DNA from: Gordius sp. MW1
Lineage: Eukaryota > Nematomorpha > Gordioida > Gordea > Gordiidae
Assembly (NCBI GenBank): GCA_964036665.1
Contig: OZ038528.1
Location: forward strand, 23,547,245 to 23,611,244
DNA length: 64,000 nucleotides
Direction of reading: 5' to 3'
Below are positions 12,311 to 62,800 of this stretch, piece after piece (the stretch's first letter is position 1; the number at the start of each line of letters is the position of its first letter). A model generated the notes under the pieces. That model was not told where the DNA came from and did not search any database. It was given only the letters and a program-made list of their open reading frames with translations. A program made the position numbers and the translations under genes.

Positions 12311-13180
12311 CACAGCTGTACAAATATTGACTTTGTGATTGTATCCCGCAATCCGACCAATAATTCTGATAGAGAATTTTGCGCTGAAAAATAATATGTT
12401 TTTAGTTTTTTTCTACGATTACCAGTTTTTTAGATAAACGAGGTTGAAAGTGCCAAAAATGCCCTTTTAAGCTTTTTTGAGGCTATATTGCCACGGCATT
12501 TTTAATATTTAGGGAAAATAGTAATATATTCATGTATTTTAAAGTTTCATCTGTAGGTCCATTCTTATATTTTTTCATCCCTTATATTCAAATTTCGCGT
12601 TTGCGTAAACCTTCTCCTTATCAAAATTCGTCCCACTATGTCTGGAAAAAGGAGTTCATTAAAATTCATACTGCGTACGCGATGTTTACTAACACATATC
12701 TCTCTCCCTTCACCTAATCTCCTCTCTTTCTCCTCCACTCCCGCCCCCTTCATGTGTGCTTGGATAGATATGGGGGCGGGAGTGGAAGAGATGGAGAAAG
12801 GGAGAGAGAGATGTGTGAGTAAACAGCGCGTGTGTAGTATGAACTCTAATGTACTCCTTTTTCCATAGCGGGGCGAATTTTGATAAGGGGAAGGGGTTTA
12901 CGTAAACGCAATAAATATAAGGGTGATATAAAAAAAAGAATGGACCTATAGATGAAACTTTAATCTACATTAATATATTACTATTTTCCGCTAAATATTA
13001 AAAATGCCGTGGCAATATAGCCTCAAAAAGGCTTAAAAAGGGCATTTTTGGCACTTTTAACTTCGTATATCTAAAAAACTGGTAATCGTAGAAAAAAACT
13101 AAAAACATATTATTTTTCAGCTTAAAATTCACTATCAGAATCATTGGTCGGATTGCGAGATATTTTTTTGTAGACCTGTG
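12311..13180. mobile_element. 870-base foldback element (near-perfect palindrome)
   Basis: The left arm (12311 to about 12745) is repeated in inverse in the right arm (about 12768 to 13180), with a spacer of only about 25 bases. The outer ends are CACAGCTGTACAAA and TTTGTAGACCTGTG. Paired blocks include CCGCAATCCGACCAAT (12347) against ATTGGTCGGATTGCG (13143), and CCACTCCCGCCCCC against GGGGGCGGGAGTGG at the centre. Arms differ by scattered substitutions and small indels, so this is an old insertion rather than an assembly mirror. It has no believable ORF. No clean target duplication was found. Confidence 0.8.
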
Positions 13181-13469: not shown

Positions 13470-15320
13470 TCTAATATATAAAATTTGTCACGGTGTTCGT
13501 AGTTAAACTCCTCCGAAACGGCTTGACCGATTTTTATAAAAATTCCTGCGAATATTTGGTAGGTCTGAGAATAGGTTTTAAACTATTTTTTAAACCTCTA
13601 AGTGATAAGACGGTCAAGTTTTTTTATTTTATACTTTTTGACACTTAATAAAATGTCAATCAAACGCAACCTCATGACGTCAAACCTGTAAAATCCAACA
13701 ATGTAAATAATCTTTCATATATAAAAAGGACTGAAGTATTCTATTTATTAAAAATATTCTTTTATTAACATATCCGCAATAATATTTGGCTCCGCGCGTT
13801 GCTGGATATATTTGAATGAGTGGCAAATGCGAGGATTAGCACATGCTCACATTTTGATTTAGTACATCGACAAATGAAGACATCGATAGTTTAATTTATG
13901 CAGAAATTTTAATCCGTGTACTGATGAATTATTGTTTGATATTGTTACTACAATAATCATGGTTCATGTGGATATTTTAATCGATCATTGCCGTCGTGTA
14001 TATACAGTGAATACAAGGCAGACTGAGTTCTTTCAACTGCGACTGTTGTTGGTTAATCGCACCGGCTCATTGTCATTTCACGATATATGTAAAGTAAATG
14101 GACAACACAATCTAGCGTATAAATAGCATGCCTTACATTTAGCTTGCTAGAAGACGACAACCATCGAGACAGTATTCTTACTGAAGCAGCATTAAACTGT
14201 ACAGGAACACAAATTAGTCTAATATTCGCAATACTGTTGACTGCATGTTTACCACCCCGAGCACAAACGTTGTGGTATAAGCAAAGATTCAATGACGGAT
14301 CATGTCGACATCCTTCAAGGTGCAACGATCTAACGTAATCATTCAGTGACGCAATGTATAATGAAGGCTTTTGATAGCTATAGGATCTTTGCATTGTCAT
14401 TGCCAATTTTAAAATTAGTCATTTTGGTATAAGTAAACCAATAGATGTATCTGATTTACTCAACACTGATATGAGTCTTGAACTGCAGTACAATACTTTA
14501 GAAATGGCAGCGATTGTTCCTCGCAATGTCCCACCACTAACTCATGAACAAAAAACCATTTACGACCGCATTATGTTGAGAGTTTCGGCAGGACAAGGGG
14601 TTTCTTTTTTTGGATGCATCAGGTGGAACTGGCAAAACATATCTCATTTCGATAATTCTTGCCGAGATACGATACAAAAATGGCATCGCATTGGCCGTGT
14701 CATTTAAATATTAATGAAAAACTCGAAGTCACCATTTTTAAATGGCAAGTTCCGAGTTGCATATGTGTGCTGCCACGAATTCTTATGATTCCCACATATG
14801 TGCCGATTGAATTCAAACGCATTAAATTTCCAATTAGGCTGGCATTCGCAATGATAAACAATAAGGCGCAAAGCCAAACAATGTCTATTTGTAGCTTAAA
14901 ATTTGCCACACCATGCTTTTCTCACGGACAACTATATGTGGCATGTTCTCGCGTGGGTAAACCATCCAGTTTGTTTGTGTTGACTAACGACGGATTACCT
15001 AAAAGTATTGTATACTTCATCGCACTTAGAGATTGATGATGAATTTTTAATCGTAATAATTTGATGTATATATAGGTATCAAAAATGGTTTAATAAAGTA
15101 TAAAGAAGAAATTTATATATGATTAGTGTATTGTCATTTTATAGGCCAACATTGTCACAACGCTCCATTCTTATTTCAATCATAACCACATACCCATACA
15201 CTGATAGTATTTTCTATAAATAAGCTAACCCAAATTCTTTCATATATTTCCTATTGATAGGTACCGATTATTTAGTAAATATGAACTAAGCCAAAGCAAC
15301 GCTTGACCGGGCTCAGCTAG
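13470..15320 (+). mobile_element. Helitron, internally deleted
   Basis: It starts TCTAATATATAAA and ends GGGCTCAGCTAG, with A immediately before and T immediately after, as expected for Helitron insertion between A and T without duplication. Inside are decayed pieces of the Helitron Pif1-type helicase in the + orientation. The same 3' terminus (GCCAAAGCAACGCTTG then CAGCTAG) recurs at 15471 and, inverted, at 47494 and 37764. At 1.85 kb it is far shorter than autonomous Helitrons, which also need a Rep domain that is not seen here. Confidence 0.8.
13932..15036 (+). pseudogene. Helitron helicase (Pif1-like) remnant
   Basis: Recognisable pieces appear in order: LLLVNRTGSLSFHDI (about 14046), LEDDNHRDSILTEAALNCTG (about 14145), FAILLTACLPP (about 14224), TLEMAAIVPRNVPPLTHEQK, then a Walker A box GGTGKTYLI near 14619. 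That box is reached only by a frameshift in a T run at about 14605. A deletion then joins directly to the C-terminal helicase motifs FPIRLAFAMINNKAQSQTMS and GQLYVACSRVGKPSSLFVLT (14836-15000). Everything between the Walker A box and these motifs is missing, so no active helicase is possible. Confidence 0.85.
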
Positions 15321-17017: not shown

Positions 17018-19412
17018 TAGGGCATCCTCCACAAACGACGTACACTGCATATCCCGCCCGTGCAATGTGAAAGGAAATTAGCTGTATGAAATGCGAATAA
17101 CATGCTGGATTGTGGTAACGTTGACAGGAAAGCGCATCCATGTCAAACACACGCTAAAAAGAAGATAGGTACTCAGCACCTGCCTACGAGAGATGAGGAG
17201 GAATTGCATAAAAGCTCAGGAGTTAGGAGAAGGATAAAAGCTATTCCACAATTGATCAACAAATCGTAAGAACTAACGGGGGCCTCCTAACCATTATGTG
17301 CGCCTATGGTCCCCCAATTGGGTGTATAGAATCAGAAAAAGACATGTTCTTTGACTCATTGTAAAAGGAAATACAAGTAATAGGACAGGAAGAAACGCTA
17401 ATTATTAGGGCGGAATCTAACGCTCACATAGGGAAAGATCGCCTCGGGTATGAACGCAATCATGGGGGCTATGGGCATGGCCTGAAGAGGGTTAAAGGAG
17501 AAAAACTTCTCGAAGTATCCCAAGCATATGACATGGCGATCGATAACACCTATTTTTAAAAAAGCGGAGATCATATTGTGACTTATAGAAGTGGGAAGCG
17601 TTCTAGTCAAATTGACTATATGCTCATATGGCGAACGGATCTACGGTAGTGTTGTGTTGGAGCGCGTGTTAAGCCAGCGCTTTAAAAGGATTATACAGAC
17701 TTACTACCATCACCATTATAAGAGTTCATCGTGAGATGCGCTTCCCTAGTGTAAGGTTCCTTTTTTTACTAATTCCCTCCCCCATGGTCCTAAATGGTAG
17801 ATAAAATTACTATGGGGCGAGCGCTCTTATTTTTATAAAACCACATGTGCCATATTTTCTAGTTACATTAACCATCACATTGATGTAACAAATAAGGCAT
17901 GAGGGGGAAGGGGTACCTTGACACACCGTGTTGTGACAACAACAACTATCTAACACCCCCTAAGCATATATCTAATGGTCCATCAGGGTCTATATGAAAA
18001 TATAATACACTAGTGATCGGGTTGCAACACACCCACACTAAATATTTTCACAAGAAAAGGATAATAAGAATGTGGGTGTGACTCTTTTATTTAAACTAAA
18101 ATATCAACTCAGCAGATGAAAAGGTGGAAAGAATAATTCAAGGAATTTATAAATACTGTGAATGACAAAAATTCCCTTCTCGATATTGAGCAAAACATAT
18201 GTATGTTCGAACCGAAGCCGAAGTTAGGACACAAATGAACATGCTGGAAAAGTTGCTCGGATGCCATGAAGAAAGAGTCACCACTATGACGAACCTCTTT
18301 AAGTAGATATAGTTAGATGAAGAAATTTTAACAATCCCATATTCAAAGACAAAGGAGACCCTCAGGATTGTGGCAATTACAGACGTATCAAGCTAACTTG
18401 CCACTCTTTTATACTCATGGAAAGGATCTTGGTAACAAGGCTGAAAAACAAGGAGGAAATATCAGCGAAGCAATTCAAATTTGTGGCCGGCAAATCCACT
18501 ATCAACCCGATCTTCCCCCAAAAATAAATGATGGATAACTAGGGGGAAAAGAGAAGCAGCCTATGGCCTTTATGGACCTAGAGAAAGCTTATGGACACGG
18601 TCCCTCGCGAGTTAATATGGTGATGCTTTTAGAAAACAAAATATGATGCATTTGTACGGCTTATAAATTACAAAGCCTCACGTGCGCTAGGACGGCAATT
18701 GGGGACTCTAAACCTTTTCGAGTTGAAATTGGATTACATCAAAAATCTGCTTTAAGTCCTTTTTTATTTATCATAATTATGGGGACGATAACGAGAGACA
18801 TTTAAAAGTCATCTTCTTGGTGTATGCTATATTAAGAGACTTAGGATAAAGTATTAGATGAAGATGAAAAGTGGTCAGAGCGCATAAATGGATATGATTA
18901 AATGTTCAGCAATCGAAAAACGGTATACATGGAGTGAATAGGCATTCCATCGCTAGATGGCCATCTAAAGTACGCAAAAGTAGACAAATTTACATACCTC
19001 CGCTCGATGCTACATCAAAAGGGAGGTTTCGCCATAGAAGTAAATGTTCAGATCTAAAATGATTTAAATGAGTATATCCAGTGTAATGTGCGACAAGAAA
19101 ATGCCATTATAATAGCAAAGCTTACAAATACCGGATGATCGATGTTACTCTATGGAAGTGAAACATGGGCCCTAAACGATGAAAGTTACTATATGACGAA
19201 TGACTTTCTCAGGACAAAATGGGTATTCAATCTATGGTAGACTTGATTAACGAAAATTGGTAAAGGTGCTATGGGCATATACTTAGAGGGGAGAAGAATG
19301 ATGTAAACCGAAAAGTACTGGACATGGAGCTACCAGAGAAGAGAAAAAGAGGACGACCTCTGTCACGTGGAAAGGGCAAGTGGATAAAATAAAGAAAACT
19401 AAGAAGATATCA
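17018..19412 (+). pseudogene. RTE/BovB-type retrotransposon, second decayed copy (5' part)
   Basis: Collinear with the inverse of 8405-11350. It starts with TCCTCCACAAACGACG (inverse counterpart near 11190). It includes the endonuclease block GKDRLGYERNHGGYGHG near 17430, the RT block GDPQDCGNYR near 18355 and a YYMTNDFL block near 19190. Many stops and indels are present. The copy is interrupted at 19412 by a later retrotransposon and resumes at 22849. Confidence 0.85.
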
Positions 19413-22400
19413 CGCCTAAAATGGCGGAAAAAAGGAAAACAACATAATCATCTTGGAATCTATACAAATTAGTATATATCCCTCAAAGGATTTGGAAAAA
19501 GTTGCCGTTATCGGAAGTTCTGCACGAAAATTACATTAATTCTTATTATGCACTACAAACGGAATCCTCTACTATTTACCTAGAAATTCTTCATGTATCA
19601 CTTATCTATTAACATTGGTACATTACTTATCCCTATTTTATTAACATTCATAGTTCTTTTTACAATACATATTTAGGCCTAAATTTATATACATAAAAAT
19701 AAATATTAAACATAAGTCCACATACAATGCAACAATCACCTTTTTCATACACATATTATCCTTAAAATGTTCAGAGGTTTTTTTTATAAAACTAATATCT
19801 ATATAATTTATATATATCTCAATAATGGTTCACCAAATGCTTTAATTCCTAAAATAAGTTAAAAATGGTTTCAACTAAATCCTTTTGTTGTACATGCAAA
19901 AAACTTATTAGCCTCAAAAAAAATAACTGTTTTATAATACATGGCCACCCTTCTGCTCGTTGTATCTCCTCTGGGAAATTCCCACCTGCTAGCCCTCTTA
20001 TTCCACCTCTTGCCTCCATAATAGAGGATGCTCCTCATAATGCCCCTTGCTCGTCCAACTCAGATACTCAATCCTTAGACAGCCCCATTATTACCTCTTC
20101 TTTGGACTATTCTTGGAGTGATTCTTTTTTAGCCTTAACCTTCCCCAATACTATTTCAAGAATCCCTAGGGGAGCTCGCCCGGCTTCTCAACAGTTTTTA
20201 ATCAACCTTATAACTTCCATAACAAACTCTCCCTCAAATCTTACTAACTGGGATAAACTTTTCAGGCTTACCTTTCACACCTTATATGTAAGAGGACCCA
20301 ACGCTGAAAATCTGTCCAAACATATTAAAGACTCCTTTTTAAATTTCAATATTGATAATATTTTTAAAAATACCCCCCAGCACAAACAATCCCCAAACTC
20401 CTCCACTGCCAAGCAAACTGCTAAACTAATTTCTAAAAAAATTGATAACTTTAACCCCAAAAGTGCTCTAAGAATATTTTATGACAATGACTCAATTGCT
20501 CCTTACTCCCTTGATTCATACCAACAACTCAAATCTAAACATCCCCCATCCTCATCGGCAAATCGACTCCCTACCTCAGCCTCTTCCATAAAACTAGACT
20601 CATCCGACATTCGGGAAGCCATCAATTTCTTTCCCATCGACTCTGCAGCAGGCCTTGATGGTTTCCGCCCTGTTTATTTACAAGACCTGATTAACCTCCA
20701 AAATGTGAGCGCTGCAATTTTACTCAACTCTATAACGTCCCTATGCAATTCAATTGTCAACGGTAATATTCCTACCGAAATAATCCCTATATTGTTCGGC
20801 GCTAAACTCATCGCTATCAAAAAACCTGATAATTCGGTGAGACCCATTGCTATTGGCAGTGTTTTTCGACGTATAATATCAAAACTCATTTGTAAGACAA
20901 TCAAATCCAGTTTAAGCGACAAGTTAATTCCTCATCAATTAGGATTTGGGGTTAAAGGCGGCTGTGAGGCTGCCAGTCACGCTGCGCGGATAAGTCTAAA
21001 ACAAATTCCATCCAATCACTGCATGGTTAAACTGGACTTTGCCAATGCTTTTAATAATATTCGCCGAGAAACGATAATAAATACCTTCATTGATGAGTTT
21101 CCAAAGTTTTCAAATTACATCAGTTTAAGTTACGGTTGTATATCAAAACTAAAGTTTGGGGACTTTTTAATTGATTCGGCAGAAGGTATTCAACAGGGAG
21201 ACCCCCTAGGTCCACCTCTGTTTTGTCTTGGGATCAAAAATTTAACTGAATCCCTCTCAAACCAATGCTCATTATCATTAAACGTCTGGTACCTGGACGA
21301 TGCTACCTTATGCGGCCCTCCTGAAGAAATTTCCAAGGCCATTCTTTTAATCCAACATTATGAAACCTCCCTAAACTTGAGATTGAATATCTCTAAATGC
21401 GAGATATATCAGTGCCCGGATACCAACAAATTTCCCATTTTTAAGCCCTTTTTAAAAGTTGAATTGATGAGTTTTACTCATCAAGGCTCTCCAATAGGTG
21501 GGCAAATCGCCTTAAAAGAATTTTTACATAGCCACTTATCAACTCTTACATCGAAGATGGATATTCTTAATACCCTCCCCAAACACCACGCATTTTATAT
21601 CATTAAAAACTATTTCAACATCTCAAAAATTCAACACTGCTTCCGGTCCTCTTCAGCCTTTTTATTGCCCGAGATTTTAAAAAGCTACGATAGCTTCATG
21701 AAGAATACTTTAGAAGCAATTCTTAATATCAAATTCAGCACTTCCTCGTGGCTCCAAGCCTCTTTACCTACTAAAGCTGGCGGCTTGGGCATACGCCCAG
21801 CTACCTCAATTTCGTTAGCTGCGTTTATCTCTTCTTATAAATCTGCCCAAAGATTGATCGACCGTTTAATCACAACAAATGAGGATCCGTCGTTTGAAGC
21901 CCTAGACGTCTGGTCAGCCAACGTCAACCCAGGGACCCCCTTCCCCATAACCTCTAGACAAAAGGATTGGGATGCTGGCCTCGTATCGCGCTCCGTTGAT
22001 TACCTCTTATCGAGTTGCGACGCCCGCCAGCACTTCAACCTTAAATCTTTAGTTTTTGACGGATCGGGTCACGAGTGGCTTGAAGCTTATCCTAGCTCAC
22101 TTTCTGGATTGATGTTGGAGGACCCAGAGCTAGCATACGCCATCGCCCTCAGACTAGGAATTCCCTATTCAAAGGAATATTCCTGCCGCAACTGCTCCCA
22201 GAGCATAGACATTTATTCAAGGCATCCCCTACACTGCCTTTACAATAAATTTAAATACATAAGGCACGAAAAGGTGAATAGCCTTATCCAAGCCGCTTTT
22301 AAAAAAGCCAACATTCCCTCCGTTTTAGAGCCGTCAGACCCTTCGTTGGAGGGAAGGATGCGACCAGACGGCTCTACCCTTATCCCTTGGCAAAATGGTC

Positions 22401-22848
22401 TACCCCTTAAATGGGATTTCACCTGCATAGACATTTTCGCCCCCTCTAACCAAAACTACAACGCTTTGACTCTCGCCGAACACCGCAAAACGGTAAATAC
22501 CAGGCCCTCCTACCATCTAATATCTTTACCCCTATCGTTGCCTCGTGTTCTGGGACTTTTGGTCCGGCCGCCATTAAGCCTTTTAAAGAAATCAGCCGTC
22601 GCTGCCCGCCCTCTAAATATTCCACTAATTTTTTACTTAAAACAAAAAATTGGTATTTTTATAGCTAAGTACAATTTTAAATCCCTGGCCGACAGTTGGC
22701 CACTTTTACAAGATGACACATGCGACATTTTTGAATCATAATATTTTTATTTTGTTTTACATCCGCTATATTTTTCGAATTTTGACACTTCGTTTTTATA
22801 ATGTTCTTACGTTCAAATAAACAATATATACATTTAAAAAAAAAAAAA
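19413..22848 (+). mobile_element. Non-LTR retrotransposon with RT and restriction-like endonuclease, inserted in an RTE copy
   Basis: Both sides carry AGATATCA (19405-19412 and 22849-22856), a perfect 8-base target duplication. The element begins CGCCTAAAATGGCGG, has a 5' leader of about 450 bases, one long ORF, a short 3' leader and an A tail of about 13 bases. Removing it joins AAGAAGATATCA to AGACATGGCCTC, which restores the RTE sequence seen uninterrupted at 35152-35175. This shows insertion by target-primed reverse transcription into an older element. It has no LTRs and no separate gag-like ORF. Confidence 0.92.
19865..22741 (+). CDS. Retrotransposon reverse transcriptase / PD-(D/E)XK-like endonuclease
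   Basis: A 958-aa single-ORF polyprotein. Near the N-terminus Cys9, Cys11, Cys22, His26/28 and Cys33 could form a zinc finger. RT motifs follow: GLDGFRPVYL (263-272), PIAIGSVFRRI (327-337), KLDFANAF (389-396, first catalytic Asp 391), IQQGDPLGPPLF (442-453) and YLDD (477-480). Next come a CX2C-X9-HX3C finger (774-791) and RPDG (833-836) with WD at 850-851, the layout of restriction-like endonucleases of R2-type elements. No apurinic endonuclease domain is present. The ATG is the first in a long open frame preceded by in-frame stops. Residues about 875-924 are read in the wrong frame (see findings), so the C-terminus may be damaged. Assignment to RT is secure; the exact clade is not. Confidence 0.93.
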   Translation: MVSTKSFCCTCKKLISLKKNNCFIIHGHPSARCISSGKFPPASPLIPPLASIIEDAPHNAPCSSNSDTQSLDSPIITSSLDYSWSDSFLALTFPNTISRIPRGARPASQQFLINLITSITNSPSNLTNWDKLFRLTFHTLYVRGPNAENLSKHIKDSFLNFNIDNIFKNTPQHKQSPNSSTAKQTAKLISKKIDNFNPKSALRIFYDNDSIAPYSLDSYQQLKSKHPPSSSANRLPTSASSIKLDSSDIREAINFFPIDSAAGLDGFRPVYLQDLINLQNVSAAILLNSITSLCNSIVNGNIPTEIIPILFGAKLIAIKKPDNSVRPIAIGSVFRRIISKLICKTIKSSLSDKLIPHQLGFGVKGGCEAASHAARISLKQIPSNHCMVKLDFANAFNNIRRETIINTFIDEFPKFSNYISLSYGCISKLKFGDFLIDSAEGIQQGDPLGPPLFCLGIKNLTESLSNQCSLSLNVWYLDDATLCGPPEEISKAILLIQHYETSLNLRLNISKCEIYQCPDTNKFPIFKPFLKVELMSFTHQGSPIGGQIALKEFLHSHLSTLTSKMDILNTLPKHHAFYIIKNYFNISKIQHCFRSSSAFLLPEILKSYDSFMKNTLEAILNIKFSTSSWLQASLPTKAGGLGIRPATSISLAAFISSYKSAQRLIDRLITTNEDPSFEALDVWSANVNPGTPFPITSRQKDWDAGLVSRSVDYLLSSCDARQHFNLKSLVFDGSGHEWLEAYPSSLSGLMLEDPELAYAIALRLGIPYSKEYSCRNCSQSIDIYSRHPLHCLYNKFKYIRHEKVNSLIQAAFKKANIPSVLEPSDPSLEGRMRPDGSTLIPWQNGLPLKWDFTCIDIFAPSNQNYNALTLAEHRKTVNTRPSYHLISLPLSLPRVLGLLVRPPLSLLKKSAVAARPLNIPLIFYLKQKIGIFIAKYNFKSLADSWPLLQDDTCDIFES

Positions 22849-26630: not shown

Positions 26631-27061
26631 GTAATTATAGACATATAATTTGGATATCACTATTTACACCCTTCATTATAATTTGAATATAAAAGGGACA
26701 TTCAAGATGCTATTTGAATACCTTACGATTTAACAATGTTATTCATATTAACCTCTATTAAACTAATGCTTAACGATAATACAACACCCTAACTTTTGGT
26801 TATAATAAACGAGAACAAATTATTGTGCTCAGTAATTAATTCCTTTTTTTGCTGAGTAGAATATTCAAATGCTCATTAGAATAAACAAATGCTCAGTAGA
26901 ATAATTTAATGATCAGTAGAATAATTAAATGCTCAGTAAATAATTTAATGTTCAGTAATTTAATTATTTGTTTAGTAAAATATTCATTTGTTCAGTTTTT
27001 ATTCAAATCTTGCTCAGTATTTTTTTTATTTATGCAAAGTAACTAAGAATTAGTTTTTAAA

Positions 27062-27140
27062 ATAAAATCCTAGAGCGAGATTCGAACCCAAGATATCTAA
27101 GTAAGTGTCTTGCGTGTTTCCCATGGAGTCAAGTGCTCGC
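27062..27140 (-). other. tRNA-like segment inside the foldback-like element
   Basis: On the minus strand it contains GGGTTCGAATCTCG, a good match to a tRNA T-arm / polymerase III B box, preceded at about 50 bases by GCGAGCACTTGACTCC, which could be an A-box relic. It does not fold into a convincing complete tRNA. A similar segment occurs at the same relative place in the element at 36912. Confidence 0.45.
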
Positions 27141-27251
27141 CTGAAAATTGGTTTATATTTGTTTATATGTTAATTAAAATAAATTTTATTTTATAAACTA
27201 CCTCCTCCAAGTGCAATTGTCCATCGTTTTGTAAACAATATATTTGCAAAC

Positions 27252-27378
27252 ATGTCGTTGGGTTGGCAATTAAACTTAAATTCTGAACCACCTAAAGGAG
27301 CCAAAAGTGTGTCTATAGGGCAAAAAAGAAAACGAGGCAGACCCTCAAAGGCTAAATCAGCCTTTATTGTTCAGTATG
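27252..27378 (+). CDS. Possible first exon with AT-hook
   Basis: Forty-two codons from ATG end at GG with a consensus donor GTAAGT (27379). The protein has a basic AT-hook core, KRKRGRPSKAK (residues 25-35), which binds the minor groove of AT-rich DNA in known proteins. It lies inside the foldback-like element. No matching second exon is recognised before the right-hand array, so it may be a transposon gene remnant, a captured host exon, or chance. Confidence 0.4.
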
Positions 27379-28804
27379 GTAAGTTTAGACTATTTAACAT
27401 TGATTATATAACAAATTTTAGGTTTTTGAAATTAAAGTTGTCTCGAGCAAAATTTGTCTATTTTTAATTTTAAATTGTTAATTAGTATTATTTATCTGTG
27501 TTTGTAAATATTTGTTATTATATTCAAATAAAATTTTATATTTTCTCTTTATAAAGTTTAAGATTGATAAAACTCAACAAATTTGCAAAAAAATACACCA
27601 TAAACATGTAAAATTTAAGAAGGGAAAGGCAGAGCATTTTTGAATGGGAATTATAGGTCATTACTTTTCATAGCTTTTTTTAATTTGCCATTATTTATTT
27701 GAAGGGAGAGAAAGGAGGACTAGGGAAAAAATTCAAGACACTGAGATACCTTATAACCTTTAAAAATTTAACAATCAGGCCTTCAATCAATTTAATTTAG
27801 CCAAAATAAACTACTTCAATTTCCACACACTCAATTTATTTTTACAAAATATTAGTGCTAAATAGATTAAGATTGAGTATTATTTAATTTACTGAGCATT
27901 TTTTTAGCAGTTTCGATTTATAAATGAGCAATATTAAGATTATTTACTGAGCATTTTCAAATTTTTTACTGAGCATATTAATAAAGTACTGAGCATGTTT
28001 TACTGAGCATTTTTGATTTTTTTACTGAGCATCATCCATAATAAACTTACTCCATATTTAGTAATAAAGTAGACTTAAACCTCTACATTGGTGACTCCGT
28101 TTTTTCGGGGGAGCCGAATTTTTTTTATTCCTCCCCCCAGAATATTTATAACCCCAGGTCTGCGTTAGTAACCTCGCATTACAGGAGAGCCGATATTTTT
28201 TTAAATTCTCCCCCTAAACAATGTCTTCTGCAACGTCTGCCGAAATTGGAATTGTCCCCTACTCATCACGGCCATCACAAACAAGTCAAAACAAACCTTT
28301 ACGGCCTTTAAGAGCAAAGACTACAATTTCGGCCATACAATGCATGACATATAACAGCTACTGTTACCAGCATTTTCCTCACCACTGATCTATTTAACCG
28401 ATGGAAGACTGCGATTTTAATATAGATACGTCTGATCGTGACATGTCAAGATATTGGATAGCAAAACAACTACCAACCATCATTCACACCTCAACCATCA
28501 CACGCAAACACTAACTTCATTTACCTCATACTTTTATTTTTTTGCACTCCACGCAAATAGGAGGGGGGTAATATAGTATTACCTAATTAGAATATTGGTA
28601 ATATCACTATTCACACCCTTCTAATTTGAATATACAAAGGACATTGAAGTTGATATTTAAATACCTTACGATTTAACAATGTTATCTAGATTAACCTCTA
28701 TACAATTATATATAAACTAATGCTTAACGTAATAAAACACTCTAACTTTTGGTTATAATAAACTTACTCCATGTTTAGTAATAAAGTAGACTTAAACCTT
28801 TACA

Positions 28805-29600
28805 GACATACTAATAATTTTGATTGAAATATAATTAAAGACAAAAATAAAAGCAACTCAAAAAAAATTTCCTTTCATTTTAAATGATTTTTTTTAATTA
28901 AAATCAATATTATTTTTAGACATATTTGATACAACATTCAACTTGATTATAATCATGACAAAATGGCGGTATCTACTTGTTGAAAAATTATAAGCTGTTC
29001 AGCAGTCTAGGGTTTTATTAGTCTATGATTATATTACAGCTTAAATTATAAATGAAAAAGTGGTTTAATAATTTAGAATATTCACAACCTATATTAATAA
29101 TAACCATTTTGGAGGTTTACCTTGCTTTTTTGAGCAGATAAACTGGTTAGATTAATATTAATATGAGGAAAGAGCAACATCAAAAAGCATACCATAAATA
29201 TAATAATTTATTAAATAATTAATGGTTGATTATAATAATTTGTTTCTCATGAATTAACACTATATTATATGTTTTTCTTAGATGGAAATATTATAAAATA
29301 AGTTGTTTTTGCTAGAAATTTTATAAGGTGAATAGCTGTTGATAAATGAAAGTAGATATACCTCATATTGTACAAATTATAAAAGATTTTAATGACACAA
29401 ATATGTTTAATAATAGATTATTATTTGTATACCTAACTTTTATTTCTACCCCTAAATATTAACTGCTATGCAATTTATGGACTCGTTTTTGGTTGTTCGT
29501 CCGTCCTGTCCAACTTGTAATTTCTAATACATGCTGTGGAAACTTTTATTTATTTATATATTAATAATTGATTGACGCACTCTAAATTTTTATTATGTCA
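28805..29600. other. AT-rich intergenic DNA
   Basis: No gene or clear repeat recognised. Confidence 0.4.
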
Positions 29601-36746: not shown

Positions 36747-36911
36747 TTTTTTTTAATATTATAGAAATATAATCCAGTTGAACAACGTTTATCTGATCTA
36801 AAATTAGTTTTTTAATCTAAGTCCAATCAGCAAATATACATTCTATGGATCAAATTTTATTTGATGATGGAGTTTAATTATGGGTGTTATTTAAATGCAT
36901 AATGAAAAATT

Positions 36912-37746
36912 CCATAATGCTCAGTTGTTTGTGCTCAGTTTTTAATTCAACTTGCTCAGATTTTTAATTAAAAATGTTCAGTTTTTTTTATGCTCAGATT
37001 TTAATTAAAAAGTGCTCCGTTTTTTTGTAAACAAATGTTCAGTTTTTTTTCAAAAAAAAAATTCGTTTTTTTTCAAAATATGCTCAGTTGTTATTAAATC
37101 ACTAAATCTAACCCTAACCCTTGCCTATATTACATTTTGCCTATATTACATTTTGCACAGAAGTGTTATTGAGCTGTGGAAACGCTAGAGAGCTTTAATA
37201 ATAATTATAAATTATTCATTTAAATCGCGTATTTATAAAAATTATTTTTATCTGTGGAAACCTTAGAGAGCTTTTATAATCGTTGTAAGTTATTACTCTA
37301 TTTGTATAATAAAAATTGTCTATATTAAGTACATAAATCAAAGTATATTAAAAACAAACAAAATGATGCCTTTAATAATCATTTATTAAAATAATATATA
37401 TAAATCTAATAAAATGTTATAGCTGCTATATATAAGTGATATAACCAAAAATATTTTGAGGTGTAATAAGCTCAGTGGATTGAACGACTGACTAGCAGCT
37501 TCAATAGCTCGTACCTTGCAGGTTCGATACCCGCACCTATCTCGTTTTAATTAAAAATTAAAACCACTTTGCATAATAAAACTTGGCAAGTATTATTAAT
37601 CTCTGAGCAAATAAATAAAAATCTGAACATTTAATAAAAAACTTAACATTTAATTCAAAACTTGGCAAATTGAATAAAAAACTTGGAAAATGGCAATTAA
37701 AAACTTTGCACTTTGAATAAAAAACTATGCAAAATAATTTGTTCTC
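36912..37746. mobile_element. Second foldback-like element with TGCTCAGT arrays
   Basis: The left array (36912 to about 37090) has diverged TGCTCAGT/TGTTCAGT units. The right array (about 37600-37746) has inverse units decayed to CTGAGCA, CTGAACA, CTTGGCA and CTTTGCA. It ends AATAATTTGTTCTC, the exact inverse of the other element's terminus GAGAACAAATTATT. A tRNA-like segment lies next to the right array, in the same relative place and orientation as in 26811-28037. No convincing target duplication was found. Confidence 0.72.
37460..37540 (+). other. tRNA-like segment inside the second foldback-like element
   Basis: TAAGCTCAGTGG resembles a polymerase III A box and GCAGGTTCGATACCCGC resembles a T arm / B box, about 40 bases apart. 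AGGTG at the start can pair with CACCT at the end as in an acceptor stem. D and anticodon arms are imperfect, so I call it tRNA-like rather than a tRNA gene. Confidence 0.5.
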
Positions 37747-39764: not shown

Positions 39765-42700
39765 ATGTCAGCTGCCGACGTTAAAGTAAGCATGGTATAT
39801 ATTAATTTAACAAAAATTTAGTCCTCAAACACCGATGGATCAAGCTACGTTGGATTTGCAAATTTACCTAATCAAGTGCACAGGAAGTCTGTCAAGAAGG
39901 GTTTTGAATTCACTCTTATGGTTGTAGGTACCAATAAATATCTAATACCATTATATACATGGATTTAGGTGAATCTGGTTTGGGCAAGAGCACTTTAATA
40001 AATAGTTTGTTTCTTACAGATTTATACCCTGATAGAGCAATACTTTCTGCAGCAGGTATTTATATTATTGTTGTTAATAATCTTTCAAAGAAAAAATGAA
40101 ACAAACCTTAAAGATTGAAGCATCATCTGTAGAAATTGAGGAAAGAGGGGTGAAACTTAGATTAACTGTAGTAGATACTCCAGGATTTGGTGATGCTATT
40201 GATAATACTAATTGGTAAACTAAATTTTTTGAAAATCATGACTTTTGTATAGCTTTGAACCAATACTGAAATATATAAATGACCAATTTGAACATTACCT
40301 GAATGATGAGAGTGGATTGAATAGAAGACATATAGTAGATACAAGAGTTCATTGTTGTTTTTACTTTATTAACTCAATAGGACATGGGTGAGAAATAATT
40401 TTTAAAATATCCATATTCAAATATTTTAGTTTAAAACCATTGGATATCGCCTTTATGAAGCAACTCAACAATAAAGTCAATATAGTTCCCGTGATTGCCA
40501 AAGCAGATACTTTGACCATTAAAGAATGCACTATTCTTAAAAATTCAGTAATATTTATTTATAAACTAACAATCGATTGAATGCTTTTTAGCAAATATAA
40601 ATAGTATACTGATTATTTAAATTTCCAATAAAACATAATATATTAGTAAGGGGTCAAAATGTAATATTTTTTGTTTATATAATTTATATTATTTGGGCCA
40701 TTCCAAGTTGAATCGTCAAAAAAAGACGATTTTCGACCGACCATTTCAGATCGGGATAATTTTTGGTGAGGGTGTAGGCCTCATTTATCAGAGTATTTCT
40801 AAAAAATTTAGCCATTTTGGGCCAATAATTTTTAAATTATGGACGTTTAAAGGGCCAAAATCACATGTGGAGCGTTCTATGGGTTTTAATAATTTTGTCA
40901 TATTTTTGAAAGTAATGGCGCTATTCAATCAAATTTTGGTGCATTCTCAAAAAATTAAATTTTCACCAAAAATATTATAGATGGCGGATAAACTTAAATT
41001 TTCATCTTGCTTTTGCACAATTCCAATTATTCGAGTTTGAAAATTAGATCTTAAATTTTTTTATTGATATAGGGGTAGGCTAAAATAAATGTAAGGTTGG
41101 AAAAAAAATAAATATTAACATGATGGCAAAATTGTTCAAATATTATTATTTTTGTACTGATAATCCATTCTAAAAATATAAAATTTTGGCGGGATCAAAG
41201 GTGTTTAAAAAACATTGCTTGCTAGTTGTGACCATTTTTTATTTTAATTAAAATTAAAGTTATTTTTAAACTGGTTACTTGCCCATCGCGTAGATAAAAC
41301 TTCAATTTTTAAGTTTATTTTTATTCAAATATATTTATTTATCATATACTCTTTAAAAATTTGCAATTTGATGAAAAACAAACATCATAATATGTTCTTG
41401 TGATAATTGATTATACCGCCATCTATAAATATTTTTGGTAAAAATGTAATTTTTCGAAATCTTGACCATCTCTAGCCGAACCTAGACTTTTTATGATTGA
41501 AATATGATAATGGGTCATAAAGGAGTGCACATTGTGAAATTGGTGATTTCATATGATGAACAAATAGGTTTTTATGATTTTTCACTAATTTGACCATAAA
41601 TTAACAAAAGTTTGGGGTTTTTTGCTAAATTATTTAGATAGAAAATTTTTTTAGGAACAAAAGCACCAAAATTTGATTGAATAGCGCCATTACTTTTAAA
41701 AAATGACAATAATAGTAAAATCCATAGAACGCTCCCGAACGTGATTTTGGCTCTTTAAACGACCATAACTTAAAAGGTATTGCCCCATAATGGCTAAAAT
41801 TTTCCGAAATTACTATAATACATAAGGCCTACACCCTCACCAAAAAAATCCATATCTGAGATGGTCGGTCGAAACCGTTTTGATTTGTCTTGGAATGGCC
41901 CAATTATTTAATATTTATTTCATGTTTAATATTTTAAGGTATTGAAAGAATTAGTAGAGAATGGCATACACATCTATCAAATGCCCGACTGTGAGAGCGA
42001 TGAAGACGATGATTTTAAGGAACAAGTTAAACTGTTAAAGGTAAAATGTTTATATCTCATTTTATTTTGCACCAATTTTAAATAACTTTCTATAATAAAG
42101 ATGCTTTAGGGCAATGTCTAAGTATATCTTGATTTAATTTCTTGTATTCTGCTATGAATTTAGTCATGGTCAAATAACTATAACGTTTGAACATTTTGAA
42201 TTAAAATTACCAAATGTTTTTTAATACTGAATATTATTTATTTATATTTTACTGAGCATTTCTTGTAAAAACTACTGAGCATTTTTCAAGTTTATTTACT
42301 GAGCACATTAATAAAATAATAGCACATCTTACTGAGCACATTAATAAAACGATAAGCACATCTTGCTGAACATTTTTGAATTTTTTACTAAGCATTTAAA
42401 TAACATTACATTATATAATAATATTTTTAAGGGTGCGGTTCCTTTTGCCATCTGTGGGTCTACCCAAATGATGGAAACTAAATCGGGCAAAAAAGTACGT
42501 GGACGAATGTACCCCTGGGGTGTGGTCGAAGTCGAAAACACGCTCCATTGCGATTTCCTCAAACTTAGGACGATGTTGATGTAAGTTTATTTTTTAAATT
42601 TCAAAGCGACAAAAGTGTTAAAGTTAGCTACTTGTTTAAGTTAGAAGCAGACGAAGATTGCTTTTGGTATGTTCTCTACCTTTATTGCCTTTATTTTGTT

Positions 42701-45246: not shown

Positions 45247-48200
45247 TTAAGCGATCTTTTTGCGGGACGACCAATTGCACTCGCTTGTGAACAGCTGATA
45301 GTTGAAATAGACTAAGTAGTAGATGAAGTGAACAAAGGCGTATCCGCATATGACTACTGCCCAAAGGTCTGGATACTTGAGGGGCGGGGCTATAAGATGA
45401 CAACATAGGCACAGTCCCATCCCCATCCCCGCGGAAATTTTGTACTGTGGGGGGTAAAAAACAGAATTTTAAAAATTGTATTTAACGCGAAGTTTATCTA
45501 GAGTGCAATTAAATTTTTGCGGCCAAATAACTTTCGGGTTCTCAGGGTTTAAAGTAGCAAATTTATATAATATATATTCCTAGGTTTAAACGAAGATTTA
45601 AAAATGCATGATTATTAATAATAAAAGTTTAAGATAAATACAACTATAAAACAGTAACTCATTTAATAGTCAATCTCTTCAAATATGAAAACGCATTTTC
45701 CATTTTTAATCAAAAACGACGAAAGAAACTTTATTGCTACAATGAAAGGGTACAACCTAATCTTATAAATATCATTGGTATCTAATTTTTATGCAATTAA
45801 TGATGGGTTTGGAACAAAAATTGTTCCTAATTAAGTGTACCTTTTTTCCGCCAAATTAAACTAAGCACAATGTAATACTAATAATAATCATAGTAAAATA
45901 ATTAAGAAAAACTATTTTAATAGGTGAAACGCCATCAATAGAGATACATAATTTTCTTTTTACATTTTTAGACTTATATGGGTTCTTTCCAAATTAATTT
46001 CATAATACTAGGCTTCACCTTTTGATAATAGTTACTTCCTATCAATATTTAACATGTATATTTTGTGCATAGGTGAAGTGCACATTTCAAAATGGCGGAA
46101 AAATAAGGTACACAATTTACCATTTGAAACATATATATGTCATGCATGAGCAGTCTATTTTAAAAAATACAGAGGGGGCACAGGCCCACAGCTAAGTAGC
46201 TAGGCGATCCACTAAAATATTGTAATTAGAGGGGGGGCGGTTAAGTTTACTTTTTTAAAATATAATTAAAAATAAATGATTTACCAAAAGTTTTTTATGT
46301 TTAGAAAGGGTATCCCTGTGGTTGGTGTAAGCTGAATTTGCAAAAAAGTTCAACCACTCTTGGGTTAAAATGGCGAAATAAGCTAGTGTCATGGCGTAAA
46401 AGGGAAGTTGCAAATTGTCTTTCGCGAATAACGGATACATGCTATTCGTAAAATTAAGCATATAAAATATTAGGTTGTATTCAAAAGAAAACACGAATTG
46501 GATTATTTTAATTTTTAAAAAAGTATTATAAAATTATAGAAAGAAAAGTAAACCTGACGCAAGAAATCAATAAAAAGTTGAGGCACGAATAAGGGTATTC
46601 TGGTAGCAAAAGCAGCATGGGTCTATAAATCAAAAATAGAAAATTGCATAAAATTATGGCAAAAAAATCACATTTTTAAACAAAACGTTTGCAATTAATA
46701 ATTACTCGGGCCTTCGGCCCTCGTGGGAAGGGGGAGAAGGGAAGGGGAAGGAGGGGAAGGGAAGGGGGGACGACTCATCTATACTCCGTATAAATATATC
46801 ATATTTGCTATGCAATTTATGGGCGAGAAAGGTGGGAAGGGGCGAGAATGCCCTAGGGGGTATTAAATGCCTAATGATTAATAAATTATTTATACAAATT
46901 TTTCATTTAATTAAAAAAAATTGCCCTCTCCGTGATTCGAATTCGAACCCACATCAGTAGAGGTAGCCTTTGTAGGGGCACAGGGAACCATATAAGTAGA
47001 AGTATAGGCCTTTGTAGGGGAGGGCATAGAGTAATTATCGTTATTAACCAATTGAATTATTCATTACTAATTCTTTTTTAGGGGAAAAGGTCATACTTTG
47101 GTTTTTTTAACTAATGGGTGTCAAAGGTTGTTAATATGAGAAAAGCGAAAATACCCTAAAGAAGAGGAAATTATAAGAAAATTAAATATAAAACGATATT
47201 CTTGATAAGTGAATATTTTTTTAATTTATAACTATAACGAGCTTATCAAATTAGAGGTAAACTTGAGATTTAAGTGTTTTAAATTAATTTTAACAATGCT
47301 TTGTTAATTGCTATTATAACATTTTTGGTTAGTTCGCCCATTTTATTTTATTATTCCTTTTAAATTATATTTCCAACCCTCCTCCCTCAATTAATAACTT
47401 CTGTTCAATACATCTACCACCTCCCCCACTCCTATATTAATAATTAAAAATAATACGCGTAATATTAATTTTGGCTTTGATATTTAATAATGACTAGTTG
47501 TGCCCGGCCAAGCGTTGCTTTGGCGTAGTTCTTAATTAGCTAAATAATTACTATGAATTAATAAAACATTTATGAAAAATTTTGGGTCAATCGTTTATGA
47601 TGTAAAAAAATATAGGAAAAGGCATAAAGGCCTGCAAAGTCACTTTTTTTCAACCCGAACTCGAAAGCGTTTTTAAATTTTCAACCCGATTCACCACTTG
47701 TTCCAGGATCCTCTCTTCCTTATTTTTAAAATAACATATGGATGTATGTATGTACGTATTGTGTCTAGTCACGTGTTTAGTAAGGCTTTTTTTAATACAA
47801 TAAAATATTTAAAATATTACGCAAAATTATAAATAAAGAGTAATGAAAAGAAAATTGAATTATAATATAATGGACTTGCGGCGTAACAAGTAGCGACATG
47901 CAATAGCTCGGCTATTGCCTGTTACAACCGCGCATTTAAAAATGTCACAGGTATCATAATGATATCTCAAATAATTTACAGGTGCTAAATTAAAACTTTT
48001 TTAACCACATTTTGGCCAATGGTCATTTTTTTCCATTGGTCAGCAGCCAGCGGACAGTCTATAAATACATAAGAGTCAAAAAAAAACGAAAAAAAAATTT
48101 CAAATCACATTTTGGCCAATGGTCATTTCCATTGGTCAGCAGCCAGGACACGGTAAAAGTGGATATAAATTCATAAGAGTCAAATAAAAAACAAAAAAAC

Positions 48201-51200
48201 AAATTTCGAATCACATTTTGGCCACTGGTCATTTTTTTCCATTGGTCAGCAGTCAGGACACGGTAAAAGTGGATATAAATTCATAAGAGTCAAAAAAACG
48301 AAAAAAAAAATTTTTTTTCCATTGGTCAGCAGCCAACGGACGGCCAAAAAGACATATTATCTGGTATTAACAAGAACAATCATAATAGTCAAAAAAAACG
48401 AAAAAAATAATTGCAATTCCCATTTTGGCCAATGGTCATTTTTTCCCATTGGTCAGCAGCCAACGGACGGCCAAAAAGCCATATTATCAATGGTATTAAC
48501 AAGAACAATCATAATAGTCAAAAAAAACGAAAAAAATAATTGCGATTCACATTTTGGCCAATGGTCATTTTTTCCATTGGTCAGCAGCCAACGGACGGCC
48601 AAAAAGTCTTATTATCAACGGTATTAACAAGAACAATATATAAATTTAAACAAAAAAATAAAAAAAAAATTTGGCCTCTCCGGGATTCGAACCCACATCA
48701 AGAGAGGCATAGGCTTTTGTGAGGGGGGGGCATAGGGACCCATATCAGTAGAGGCATAGGCTCTACTAGGGGAGGGCATAGGGTAATTGTCAATGTTAGT
48801 CAAAAAAAACGAAAAAAATAATTTTCGAATCATACTTTGGCCAGTGGTCATTTCATTCCATTGGTCAGCAGGCAACGGACGGCCAAAAAGTCATAATAGC
48901 AATGGTAGTAACAGGAACAATCATAATAGTCAAAAAAAACGAAAAAAAAACTTGGATTCATATTTTGGCCAATGGTCATTTTTTTCATTGGTCAGCACCC
49001 AACGGACGGCCAAAAAGTCTTATTATCAATGGTAGTAACAAGAACAATCATAAGAGTCAAAAAAAACTCCGGGATTCGAACCCAAAAACTAGTTAAATTA
49101 ACAAAAAATAAGAGTAAAGAACGAGACAAGACATTCTGTGCAAGACAAGACATTCGGTGCAAGACATCAAGACATTCGGTGCAAGACAAGACATTCAATG
49201 CAAGACAAGACAAGACACCGAACAGCGTTACAAACAAAATGGAAAGCGAGCCCATAGATTGCATAGCATTTAATTAAATAGAGGCACAGGGACCCATATC
49301 AGTAGATGCATAGGCCCTTGTAGTGGAGGGCATAGGGTAATTATCAATGTTAACCTATTCAAAAACGAAAAAAAAATTTCGATTTATTTGGCCAATGGTC
49401 ATTTTTTTCAATGGTCAGTAGCCTGCGGACGGTCAAAAAGTCATATTATCAATGGTATTAACAAGAACAAAATATTAATTTAATTAAATATATGCATTGG
49501 AGGGTAAACGGACGGACATCAACGGACATCAACAGACAACCAAAAACGAGTCCATAAATTGCATAGCAATTAACATAATAATGATAAAAAAGACTTCTTT
49601 TAAAAGCAATATTTAGATTTTTTTAAATATAATCTCAATAAAAAGGAAAACAGTCATAATTATAGATTTTTAATTTTTTAAGCTTTACCCTAAATTAACA
49701 TAAAAGTAAATTTTATCGTCTGCCTTTAATAAATTTAGATTCAACTGGTTAAATTAAGAACGATTGTTCATATTGACTTGACATACACGAATAAATTAAT
49801 AGTCAACCTAAACTTACATAGCCACAAGTAGGATAGTTTTCTCGTGAACTTGAAAGGAAAACAGGAAAAAAGCCAAAGATGTGTTGACCTAGCAGAGTAT
49901 ATTTCAAATTAATTAATTAAATATCAAAAATATTTTGTCTACCAGTGCTAACTTCAAAACTTCTAAGTTTGGGTTAAACAAACATTTTAAAAATGATGGC
50001 ATTGATCCAGCCAATGTGAGGAGCAAGCTAAAATAAAATTTAATCAAGTATATCATCATTAAATTATAATTTGACCAAAATAATTATTCACAAATTTTAC
50101 GATATAATTATTTAATTTACATCATAAAAGACAAATCAATCATTTTAAAACCTAAGCTAGAGTGGTAGGTCAGGTTGCTATTGACCTAAAACTTTGGATA
50201 CATTATAAATTTTCCTTTTTAGCATTTGTGATGTGCATATTTATTTTAATAAAAATGTATACAATTATAATTATATTTATTTAGGTCATTTCAAGAAATA
50301 AAAAAGTAAATTATTTATGAGTAATATAATTATAATAAAAGCATCAAATTTTAGATAAAGAATATAATAATTTGTAAAGAGGGCTGTAAAATTGCATATT
50401 TTGGGAATGCAAATATTATACCTGATTATTACTAGTTGATTTTGTTGAAAAATTGATTTGATTTTTACAACAATTGATATTGTACACCAAAAATTAGCAA
50501 CTTTATCCTATTTCAAAATTAAAGTTTTTACTTTATCAAACCATACTTCATAAAGTCCTCTATTGAATGGAAACAAACGTGCTATCACACTTTTAAATGT
50601 TTCCATATCCCAAACAAATGGGTACCAACATATTAAGAATGTTACAGCTGTGGCAACACTTATTTTAATGAGTAAAAGCCATCTAAAAAATACAAAATAT
50701 TTGAATAAAATGTATACCCATGTTGTGTTTTGGTTGTTTCAATTCTTTTAGCATTTCCCAAATCATCATTTGATATCAAAGTACTATGCAACTTTGATTT
50801 CTGAGAACTATTGCTCATAAAATCTTTCAAGCAATAGCCTAGTAAATAAGCAAATATAGGGAGGGCATGGTACAATTCCATCTGTTTGTAGTTTAGGGAA
50901 AGGCTAAAGACTACAGCAGCCAGAGATATATAGTCCATTTTAATAAAAATCAAGGCCCATATAAAAAGACCAAGACTAATGCAATTGTACCTAATTAAAT
51001 AAATAAAAAAAGAAACTTAGTTTACTGGAAATGGCCATGATCAATGAGTATTAAACCAGGGTACAAAAGATTTAAGAAAACAATTGTGATCTATAAAATT
51101 AATTATTTATTTAATTAAACCATACCCAATTTGTTTTTGATTCTTTGGAGTATAAATACCAATAAAAAGTCACAGCAGTAAAATATAGAAGGAGATCAGC

Positions 51201-59800: not shown

Positions 59801-62800
59801 TGGCGTTTTTTTAAAACTTCGGTTATTCCAGCTCAGATATTTAATGATAACTATTACTCTTTTGCTCTAATTTTTATTATTTGTTTGTTTTGTTTTAAAT
59901 GACTTGATTTAATATGCATTGCCTAATATTACTATGATTATAGACTGAATTCCTAGTTTATTGTGCCATAAAGCTGCAAAAGCCAATGTGCGACTGACTT
60001 TAAACTCAAAGATTCGTTTATTTGACTAATTTAAGATTCGAGATTTTTTATCTTCTAGAATGAAGTGCTGTCAAAATGGCTGGGTTCTGATTGGTCGACC
60101 TTTGGTTTTAGTCGACCAATCATAAACAGACCAAAAGTTTGACAAAGTCTATTTGATTAAGAAAAACAGATCAAAAAATCTTTGGTTTGTTTATGTTCAT
60201 TCGACCAAAACCAATGGTCGACCAAACAAAACGCAGCCGTTTTTACAACACTACTAATACCTGGCGGACAGGTCAAGAAGCTCCCATAATTTGGGCATGG
60301 CTGGTGGATACTGATTAAGATAGGCGGGCGGGCGGGTTCGGGCTGACAATTTAATCGAAAAATCGGGCCGGGTTCGGGCAAAATGCATTTGATATCGAGG
60401 ATCACTTAATCTTTTCATCGCATAAAACCAATTTTATGTTTATTGCTCTCTAAAGGGTCCTTAAACATGAGTCCTATTTCCCCAATCATATGTATATTTG
60501 GGTTAGATTGATTATGTTCGAAGTAGCTTGTCTTTTATTATAATTTTTGTATATGCCATATATTTGCTGCCTCGAGTCATAATATTACGACTTAGTCACG
60601 TACCTTTTAACTTCGATTTTGCTTTTTTGTTATGGTTAGGGGGGAATTGACCCCTACTTGCTTCCCCCCCCCCCTTCCACCTTTTCCTTAAAGTTCAATC
60701 TTCTATTTTTGCAATTCCCTGTGGATATTGATATTACTAAAAGCGAAATCTTATAGCATAGGCAGGATTGAAAATAGAACGGGGGGGGGGGCGGGATAAT
60801 AATTATTAAGTAGAGAGGCAAAATGATAATTTTTTGTAATTTTAGTAGTAATTATATTTAATTTTAACAAAAATTTGGATTTAGGGGGGGGGCAGCCGCC
60901 CCTCCCTGCCTTCTTCTGGTTACACCCATGCAAATTTAGAAATATTTAGCATACAAATAAGATATATAATCGTCTCCTTAATTTGATGATTATGATGATA
61001 ATTTAACGGTTTTGAGCTTGAAGCACATGAGCTTTGTGTTTTTAAAATTTTTTGTTGTTGATTTAATTCATATTTTGAAGTTTCTTTTCGGCACTTGAGC
61101 CTAAAATAGGGTTTTAGCGTTTCATTTAATCGCCAAAAAAAATTATAAACATCTTTACCAGAAGACTCACAACTCATAAGCTTGTCAAATGGTCAAATGT
61201 AGGTTTTTTTCAAAAATGTCCTCTCTGTTTGGTCGTTTAAGTATTTTACGCCATAATATTATAATGGTTGTAAATGAAGTATAGTCATCACATGCCTCTA
61301 GGCGACATTATCTCTAGTTTGATATTGGTTTGGTACTACTAATAAAATAAACATTTTTAAGTTAAAGTCGAATCGACATTGCCAAGTAATATTTATGTGG
61401 CCTTTTGAGACCCTAGCTCGATTAGTGAATAAATTAAATGTTCACCTAAATGCTTATATAACATCTGAAATAAAGTAAAATATTGCCCAAAAACTCATTT
61501 TTCGGACGCGGTTTCATTTTTAATAAGGTCTCGTATCCCTTCATAATTAATTAAATAAATATTTTTACCTCCACATTCTTTAAAATTGTACATGTGTAAT
61601 ATAGCTATTAAATAGTCCTTTTCTACATCTTGTACTTATAAACACCTAAATATCCGTACTAATTTCGTTATTTGCATCAGCTAGAGAACTGCAATGTCAC
61701 TATTTTCAACCCGACTCGACCCGATTTTTTTTTCTTAATTTTCAACCCGACTCGACCCGAAAGCATTTTAAATTACTCGAACCCCACCCGACCCGAAAGC
61801 ATTTTAAAATTTTCCACCCGAACCCGACCCAACCCCACCCGAAAGCTTTTAAAATTTTTTAACCGAATCCCTTCCGAACGTGTTTCAAATTTTGGTATCC
61901 AACGCGGGAGTAAGAAAAATTGCGGTGTGCATGGGCGTAGCCTAGGGATGGCAGGGACGGGCGGCTGCCCCCCTAAATCTAAAAAATCGTAGATATTTTA
62001 TCAAATTATGGCTAAAATTAAAAAAAAATGGTTATTTTGCCCCTCCCTTAATTATTATTGCCCCTCATTGGCAAAGTGCGATTTATGAAACTAATTGTTA
62101 CCACAGATTTTGATTACTAAATTTATTTAAATGATTTATTAAAGAGATATAAAAATATGATAGCATCTACTACATCGGGTCACATTTAATTTGAAATATA
62201 TACTTTTGCAAATGAATTATTTAATAAATTTAAACTTACTTTTATTTGTTTTAAGAATATATATTTTTGTGGTTTAAATTAATAACTACCACTTCACACT
62301 ATCTAAATGCAATTTAAAAATATTATTTTGTGATGTTTTTTACCATTCACGAGTCAAATTTAAATTTGCGTCCAAATTAAAAAGGATCAGTTAAAAAAAA
62401 TAAAAGGAATTTTTTGAACTGAATGAATAATCTTCAATTATACATTTCGATATTAATTAAAAAATATTATACATAATAGCTTTAATTTAAAAAATATGTC
62501 CCGTGTATTTTGCAATGTAAGATTCATAACCTTTGACCCGACACTTTAAATCCAACCCGACCCGAAAGCATATTAAAATCTTCACCCCGGACCCGATCCG
62601 AAAGCATTATAAAATTTTTAACCCGAACCCGATTCGAAGACATTTTTAAAATTTTTAACCCGTTTCGGGTCACCCGTGCAGTTCTCTAGTATCAGTATAT
62701 ATATAATTTTTTAGCTATTAATGACCTTACTCCCCCCCCCCCCACACCATCCTTATATCTTTTAAAACGGCAACAAAACTTTATAGACTTAATAACAACG

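Follow-up and report, generated by a model that had tools for sequence, protein, structure and literature searches.

A foldback-type transposon in Gordius sp. MW1, very probably a decayed non-autonomous MULE derivative, and the tRNA-promoter-like block it shares with a nearby copy

A stretch of 64,000 nucleotides of Gordius sp. MW1 DNA (contig OZ038528.1), referred to here as the window, contains a transposon with foldback-type ends at 26811-28037 (element 1). It is very probably a decayed non-autonomous DNA transposon of the Mutator (MULE) superfamily, most similar to the Phantom/Tm1/Muta group. The element is largely ordinary. Its unusual point is a tRNA-promoter-like block, which is shared with a second copy nearby (element 2).

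Element 1 is 1227 bases long and is inserted in an old LTR element, within its 5' LTR. It is flanked by a perfect 9-base target duplication, ATAATAAAC, at 26802-26810 and 28038-28046. The same bases are present in the 3' LTR at 28755-28763, identified as the empty target site by alignment of the two LTRs. Upstream of the insert the two LTRs align with 131 matching bases, 15 mismatches and 16 positions in gaps. From the duplication onward 49 of 56 positions were identical. Element 1 is a genuine insertion with exact borders. An earlier note on this DNA had proposed a foldback-like element whose boundaries are exact and which duplicates 9 bases at its target. The duplication and the empty site support this, and the window contains another copy that shares the terminus. 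It had also reported an uninterrupted comparison allele. The 3' LTR is indeed uninterrupted at ATAATAAAC, but the position given (28773-28781) was too high by 18 bases. The host LTR element spans 26651-28810 and only around 500 bases separate its LTRs. TTGGTGACTCCG adjoins the 5' LTR and is taken by us to be a possible primer-binding site. The host appears to be a miniature non-autonomous LTR element.

The ends of element 1 are terminal inverted arrays of a short repeat placed around a distinct middle, which is the foldback arrangement. The left array (26826-27018, plus strand) has nine TGCTCAGT units with at most one mismatch, as determined by unit search and a tandem repeat finder. The right array (27891-28031, minus strand) has seven by unit search. 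The units point inward from both ends and are spaced at around 20 bp, in agreement with the opposite-facing arrays noticed previously. Counting both strands, the window contains 18 exact copies of TGCTCAGT (7 plus and 11 minus), whereas 40 dinucleotide shuffles contained 0.75 on average. Seventeen of the 18 fell into three clusters, namely element 1 (n = 10; four on the left facing plus and six on the right facing minus), 36918-37088 (n = 3) and 42251-42338 (n = 4). The single copy outside the clusters was at 52735. The outer termini of element 1 are asymmetric. The left outer motif GAGAACAAATTATTG (26811-26825, plus strand) has no inverted counterpart at the right end, where inspection of the sequence showed GGATGA, read inwards on the minus strand (28032-28037).

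Element 2 (approximately 36913-37746, minus strand) was recognised by the shared terminus and its arrays. It is opposite in orientation to element 1 and more eroded, with an imprecise left border (36907-36918). The first 14 bases of the left outer motif of element 1 recur at its outer end. The terminus GAGAACAAATTATT is exact there, and this is its only other occurrence in the window with both strands counted. Taken alone the terminus match had an E value of 0.16 in a window-wide BLAST; it carries weight because GAGAACAAATTATT is located precisely where an array ends on its outer side. In element 2, eight units with no more than one mismatch make up one array (36918-37088). The second array is eroded; a single such unit is left at 37602, and the remainder is visible as tandem repeats. 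The perfect 9 bp duplication of element 1 falls within the 8-11 bp of MULEs. No convincing target duplication was found for element 2, the best candidate matching at 7 of 9 bases. The terminus also matched three stretches of viral contigs. None of the three contained a TGCTCAGT unit in the viral DNA covered, and the matches were taken as chance. A double unit search of the viral contigs gave 15 matching stretches.

The interiors of element 1 (27040-27890) and element 2 (37080-37600) were scanned with Pfam in six frames. A SWIM zinc finger remnant, CNCPSFCKQYICKHVVGLAI, was identified in the translation of 27206-27277 on the plus strand (PF04434). It lies in a short frame and is a zinc finger of a MULE type, with a score of 20.2 bits that is narrowly above the cut-off of 19.6. 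Taken by itself such a score is modest, because the scan of element 2 produced an unrelated match below threshold with an E value of 0.0009. Ten translations taken as controls from elsewhere in the window matched no family at E values up to 1. Across all six frames of the 64 kb the pattern CxC..C[KR]H was present a single time, at the SWIM remnant, compared to a mean of 0.01 in 100 shuffles. A looser SWIM pattern occurred twice in the window, at the remnant and at 13872. An AT-hook stretch (KRKRGRP) is located 46 bases downstream of the SWIM remnant at 27324-27359, on the plus strand and in a different frame. Its Pfam AT_hook scores of 15.1 and 13.7 bits were below the cut-off of 17.4. The AT-hook core [KR].?RGRP was found three times in the window compared to a shuffle mean of 0.05. 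One other core, at 19348, falls in a separate reading frame which is presumably the end of a retrotransposon protein. An NCBIfam search gave a single irrelevant match (E value 0.15), and a PDB search with the SWIM piece gave no match at E values up to 1. Viral pattern matches numbered 62 for the AT-hook frame and eight for the SWIM frame, none of which was confirmed by tblastn. Neither a DDE nor a FLYWCH domain was found in the scanned interiors; for DDE this is expected of a non-autonomous derivative. MULE membership rests on the SWIM remnant together with the ends.

The SWIM and AT-hook stretches are most likely not cargo but the C-terminus of a MULE transposase belonging to the element itself, disrupted by a frameshift. 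Insect MULE transposases often have a SWIM finger followed at the end by a tail like KRKRGRPxKAK. The two stretches were read as the 3' end of a transposase gene because SWIM is a MULE finger type and is C-terminal in Muta6. The same region had previously been described as an AT-hook reading frame at 27252-27378 with the donor TATG/GTAAGT, and both are present as claimed. Its description as a cargo exon is not favoured, since the SWIM remnant lies directly upstream in another frame and makes the C-terminal end of a MULE transposase more likely. In a Pack-type element, the AT-hook frame would have been captured from a host gene as its first exon (ATG 27252, donor 27379) and would be cargo that could be expressed as a chimera. 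The ATG, the open frame and the donor are all in place for this, and pieces of host genes are carried by other animal TIR elements and by MULE derivatives, the latter as described in PMC5225508. However, the ATG at 27252-27254 is out of frame with the SWIM motif, where it straddles the codons for His and Val, and SWIM is a domain of MULE transposases. The Pack-type explanation is considered unlikely. It is possible that a SWIM and AT-hook gene end was captured, for example from a MULE-derived host gene. If the transposase reading is correct, as is most likely, the apparently foreign AT-hook 'exon' is a relic of the element's own transposase, and through it the element can be linked to the Mutator superfamily without recourse to a complete copy.

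The tRNA-like block is located just inside the left array in element 1 (27070-27140, minus strand) and just inside the right array in element 2 (37459-37545, plus strand), in the same relative place and orientation. Being minus/left in element 1 and plus/right in element 2, it reads outward to the GAGAACAAATTATT end in both. In the element 1 block the B box runs downwards from 27088 and has one mismatch, and the A box has two mismatches. In element 2 the B box is exact at 37521 and the A box has one mismatch. The three mismatches of element 1 were equalled by 7 of 1000 shuffles of the block and by 172 of 1000 shuffles of the whole element (both strands). The total of one mismatch in the element 2 block was equalled by none of 1000 shuffles. 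No tRNA was predicted at either block by Rfam at E values up to 10, or by ARAGORN at the default and 90% thresholds. A tRNA-like segment had been proposed for element 1. The A and B boxes are there, on the minus strand from 27088, but they are weak in element 1 alone and neither program called a tRNA at these thresholds. At a threshold of 80% ARAGORN made 20 calls across the window, two of them on the minus strand over the element 2 block. These were given no weight because the strand is wrong for the block. The mitochondrial code gave 16 calls, one at 37518-37585 on the minus strand, which was likewise discounted. Array units with one mismatch were seen within the A box of the element 2 block (37469) and within the AT-hook stretch of element 1 (27368, plus strand). 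Both are possibly chance coincidence, as GCTCAGT is also a common core of the tRNA A box.

The whole arms of elements 1 and 2, block included, aligned at 116.8, and the highest score among 200 shuffles was 83.5. When the inner blocks free of arrays were compared (27032-27165 and 37440-37580), the score was 43.3, which was reached by none of 2000 random window segments (maximum 40.2); the opposite-strand control alignment was 21.5. The tRNA-like parts alone aligned at 33.8, a value reached by 4 of 500 shuffles. The block was probably already in the common ancestor of both elements, to go by these alignments. An origin from a tRNA is likely for the block of element 2 only. Any function of the block is speculation. 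One such idea is a MULE foldback family in which an A/B-box block derived from a tRNA is retained just inside one arm because it does some work there, such as serving as a TFIIIC site that keeps the end open or insulated. The basis for this is that two strongly diverged copies share the block at the same place and in the same orientation, and the idea is given quite a low probability. Conservation of the block across the family would make it unusual, as a promoter block of Pol III type maintained within a cut-and-paste transposon. No foldback element with a tRNA-like block was found among the matches listed in the literature, in titles and abstract openings, which is not proof of absence.

The Phantom group was reportedly first described by Marquez and Pritham in 2010. 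SWIM is listed as a finger type in Phantom and many other MULE groups (PMC6446971). Phantom elements resemble element 1 in their 8-10 bp duplications, their SWIM or FLYWCH fingers and, in aphids, a minisatellite near the transposase gene (PMC6446971), whereas the elements described here have no DDE domain in the scanned interiors. The combination of features had been considered unlike known elements, but Tm1 and Muta1 share this anatomy. Tm1 of Meloidogyne is a Mutator/Foldback family with asymmetric 7-bp outer motifs, GGA, 1-9 units which are mostly 14 bp, and duplications of 8-10 bp in 45 of 53 elements (PMC3169594). It resembles element 1 in its short outer motifs, which are asymmetric and lie beyond the inverted part, its unequal unit numbers at the two ends and its 9-bp duplications (PMC3169594). 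The majority of Tm1 elements are non-autonomous and one class carries an extra non-coding block, a histone hairpin, compared to the tRNA-like block here (PMC3169594). The unit core of Tm1 is TTCAGTA (units of around 14 bp) compared to CTCAGTA here, and neither its outer motif nor its unit sequences as described are those of element 1 (PMC3169594). The Tm1 transposase has an N-terminal FLYWCH finger while element 1 has a C-terminal SWIM remnant only (PMC3169594).

Muta1 of Aedes aegypti has nine 12-bp subterminal repeats and more than 300 putative non-autonomous derivatives, around 20% of which contain pieces of host genes (PMC5225508). Muta1 and the other Aedes MULEs resemble element 1 in 8-9 bp duplications, short subterminal tandem repeats, the type 2 foldback class, many non-autonomous derivatives with variable interiors and the C-terminal SWIM of Muta6 (PMC5225508). 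The 12-bp units of Muta1 are separated by spacers of 3-4 bp and its terminal motif is palindromic, compared to a spacing of around 20 bp and other termini in element 1 (PMC5225508). Inverted arrays at both ends of an unrelated middle are also described for Tetris of Drosophila virilis, which has duplications of 8-10 bp but repeats of around 220 bp (PMC4079207), and for Galileo, which differs in that its transposase is of the P superfamily (PMC3169594). A foldback element could be moved by the transposase of another superfamily, such as the P-type of Galileo, in which case the SWIM match would be due to chance or capture. The foldback structure arises in several superfamilies, according to PMC3169594 and PMC4079207, and the catalytic domain is absent from the scanned interiors. 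However, the 9-base duplication and the SWIM remnant fit a MULE, and mobilisation by another superfamily is regarded as very unlikely.

A third array, at 42251-42394 on the minus strand, was identified by its units and by BLAST to the right array of element 1 (E value 1e-12). This solo array is flanked by septin-like exons, the joined translation of which gave a Septin-1 chain as the best match (E value 2e-35). It does not have the terminus GAGAACAAATTATT and no partner array was found nearby, as might be seen if the arrays were ordinary satellite DNA and not transposon ends, but that reading is refuted for element 1 by the empty site, is opposed by the exact 9-base duplication and by two elements with facing arrays and a common outer terminus, and is almost certainly wrong.

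A MULE derivative of this kind would have arisen when a parent encoding a transposase underwent internal deletion. Only the end of the gene would remain, as the SWIM finger and the AT-hook tail, now in different frames, and the element would therefore make no transposase. It would be cut and pasted with a 9-base stagger by a MULE transposase that is encoded elsewhere in the genome and binds the repeated units. The length of the arrays may change by slippage or unequal exchange. The block just inside the GAGAACAAATTATT arm would go back to the common ancestor of both copies, and is probably a piece derived from a tRNA (SINE-head-like) that was captured or inserted.

Further repeats were noted in the window. 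A separate inverted-repeat element at 40695-41903, in the septin-like gene region, has arms at 40731-40945 and 41660-41874 which are 86% alike. By eye its ends are GGGCCATTCC/GGAATGGCCC and its flanks are TATTATTT and AATTATTT. An open frame of 962 amino acids with a reverse transcriptase domain (RVT_1, E value 7e-20) is located at 19853-22741 and is apparently an intact non-LTR element. A complex tandem array with units of around 110-127 bp is located at 48003-49483. Long hairpins at 12717-12805 and 60068-60247 gave sub-threshold matches to many microRNA families, and these are more likely to be small inverted-repeat elements than microRNAs.
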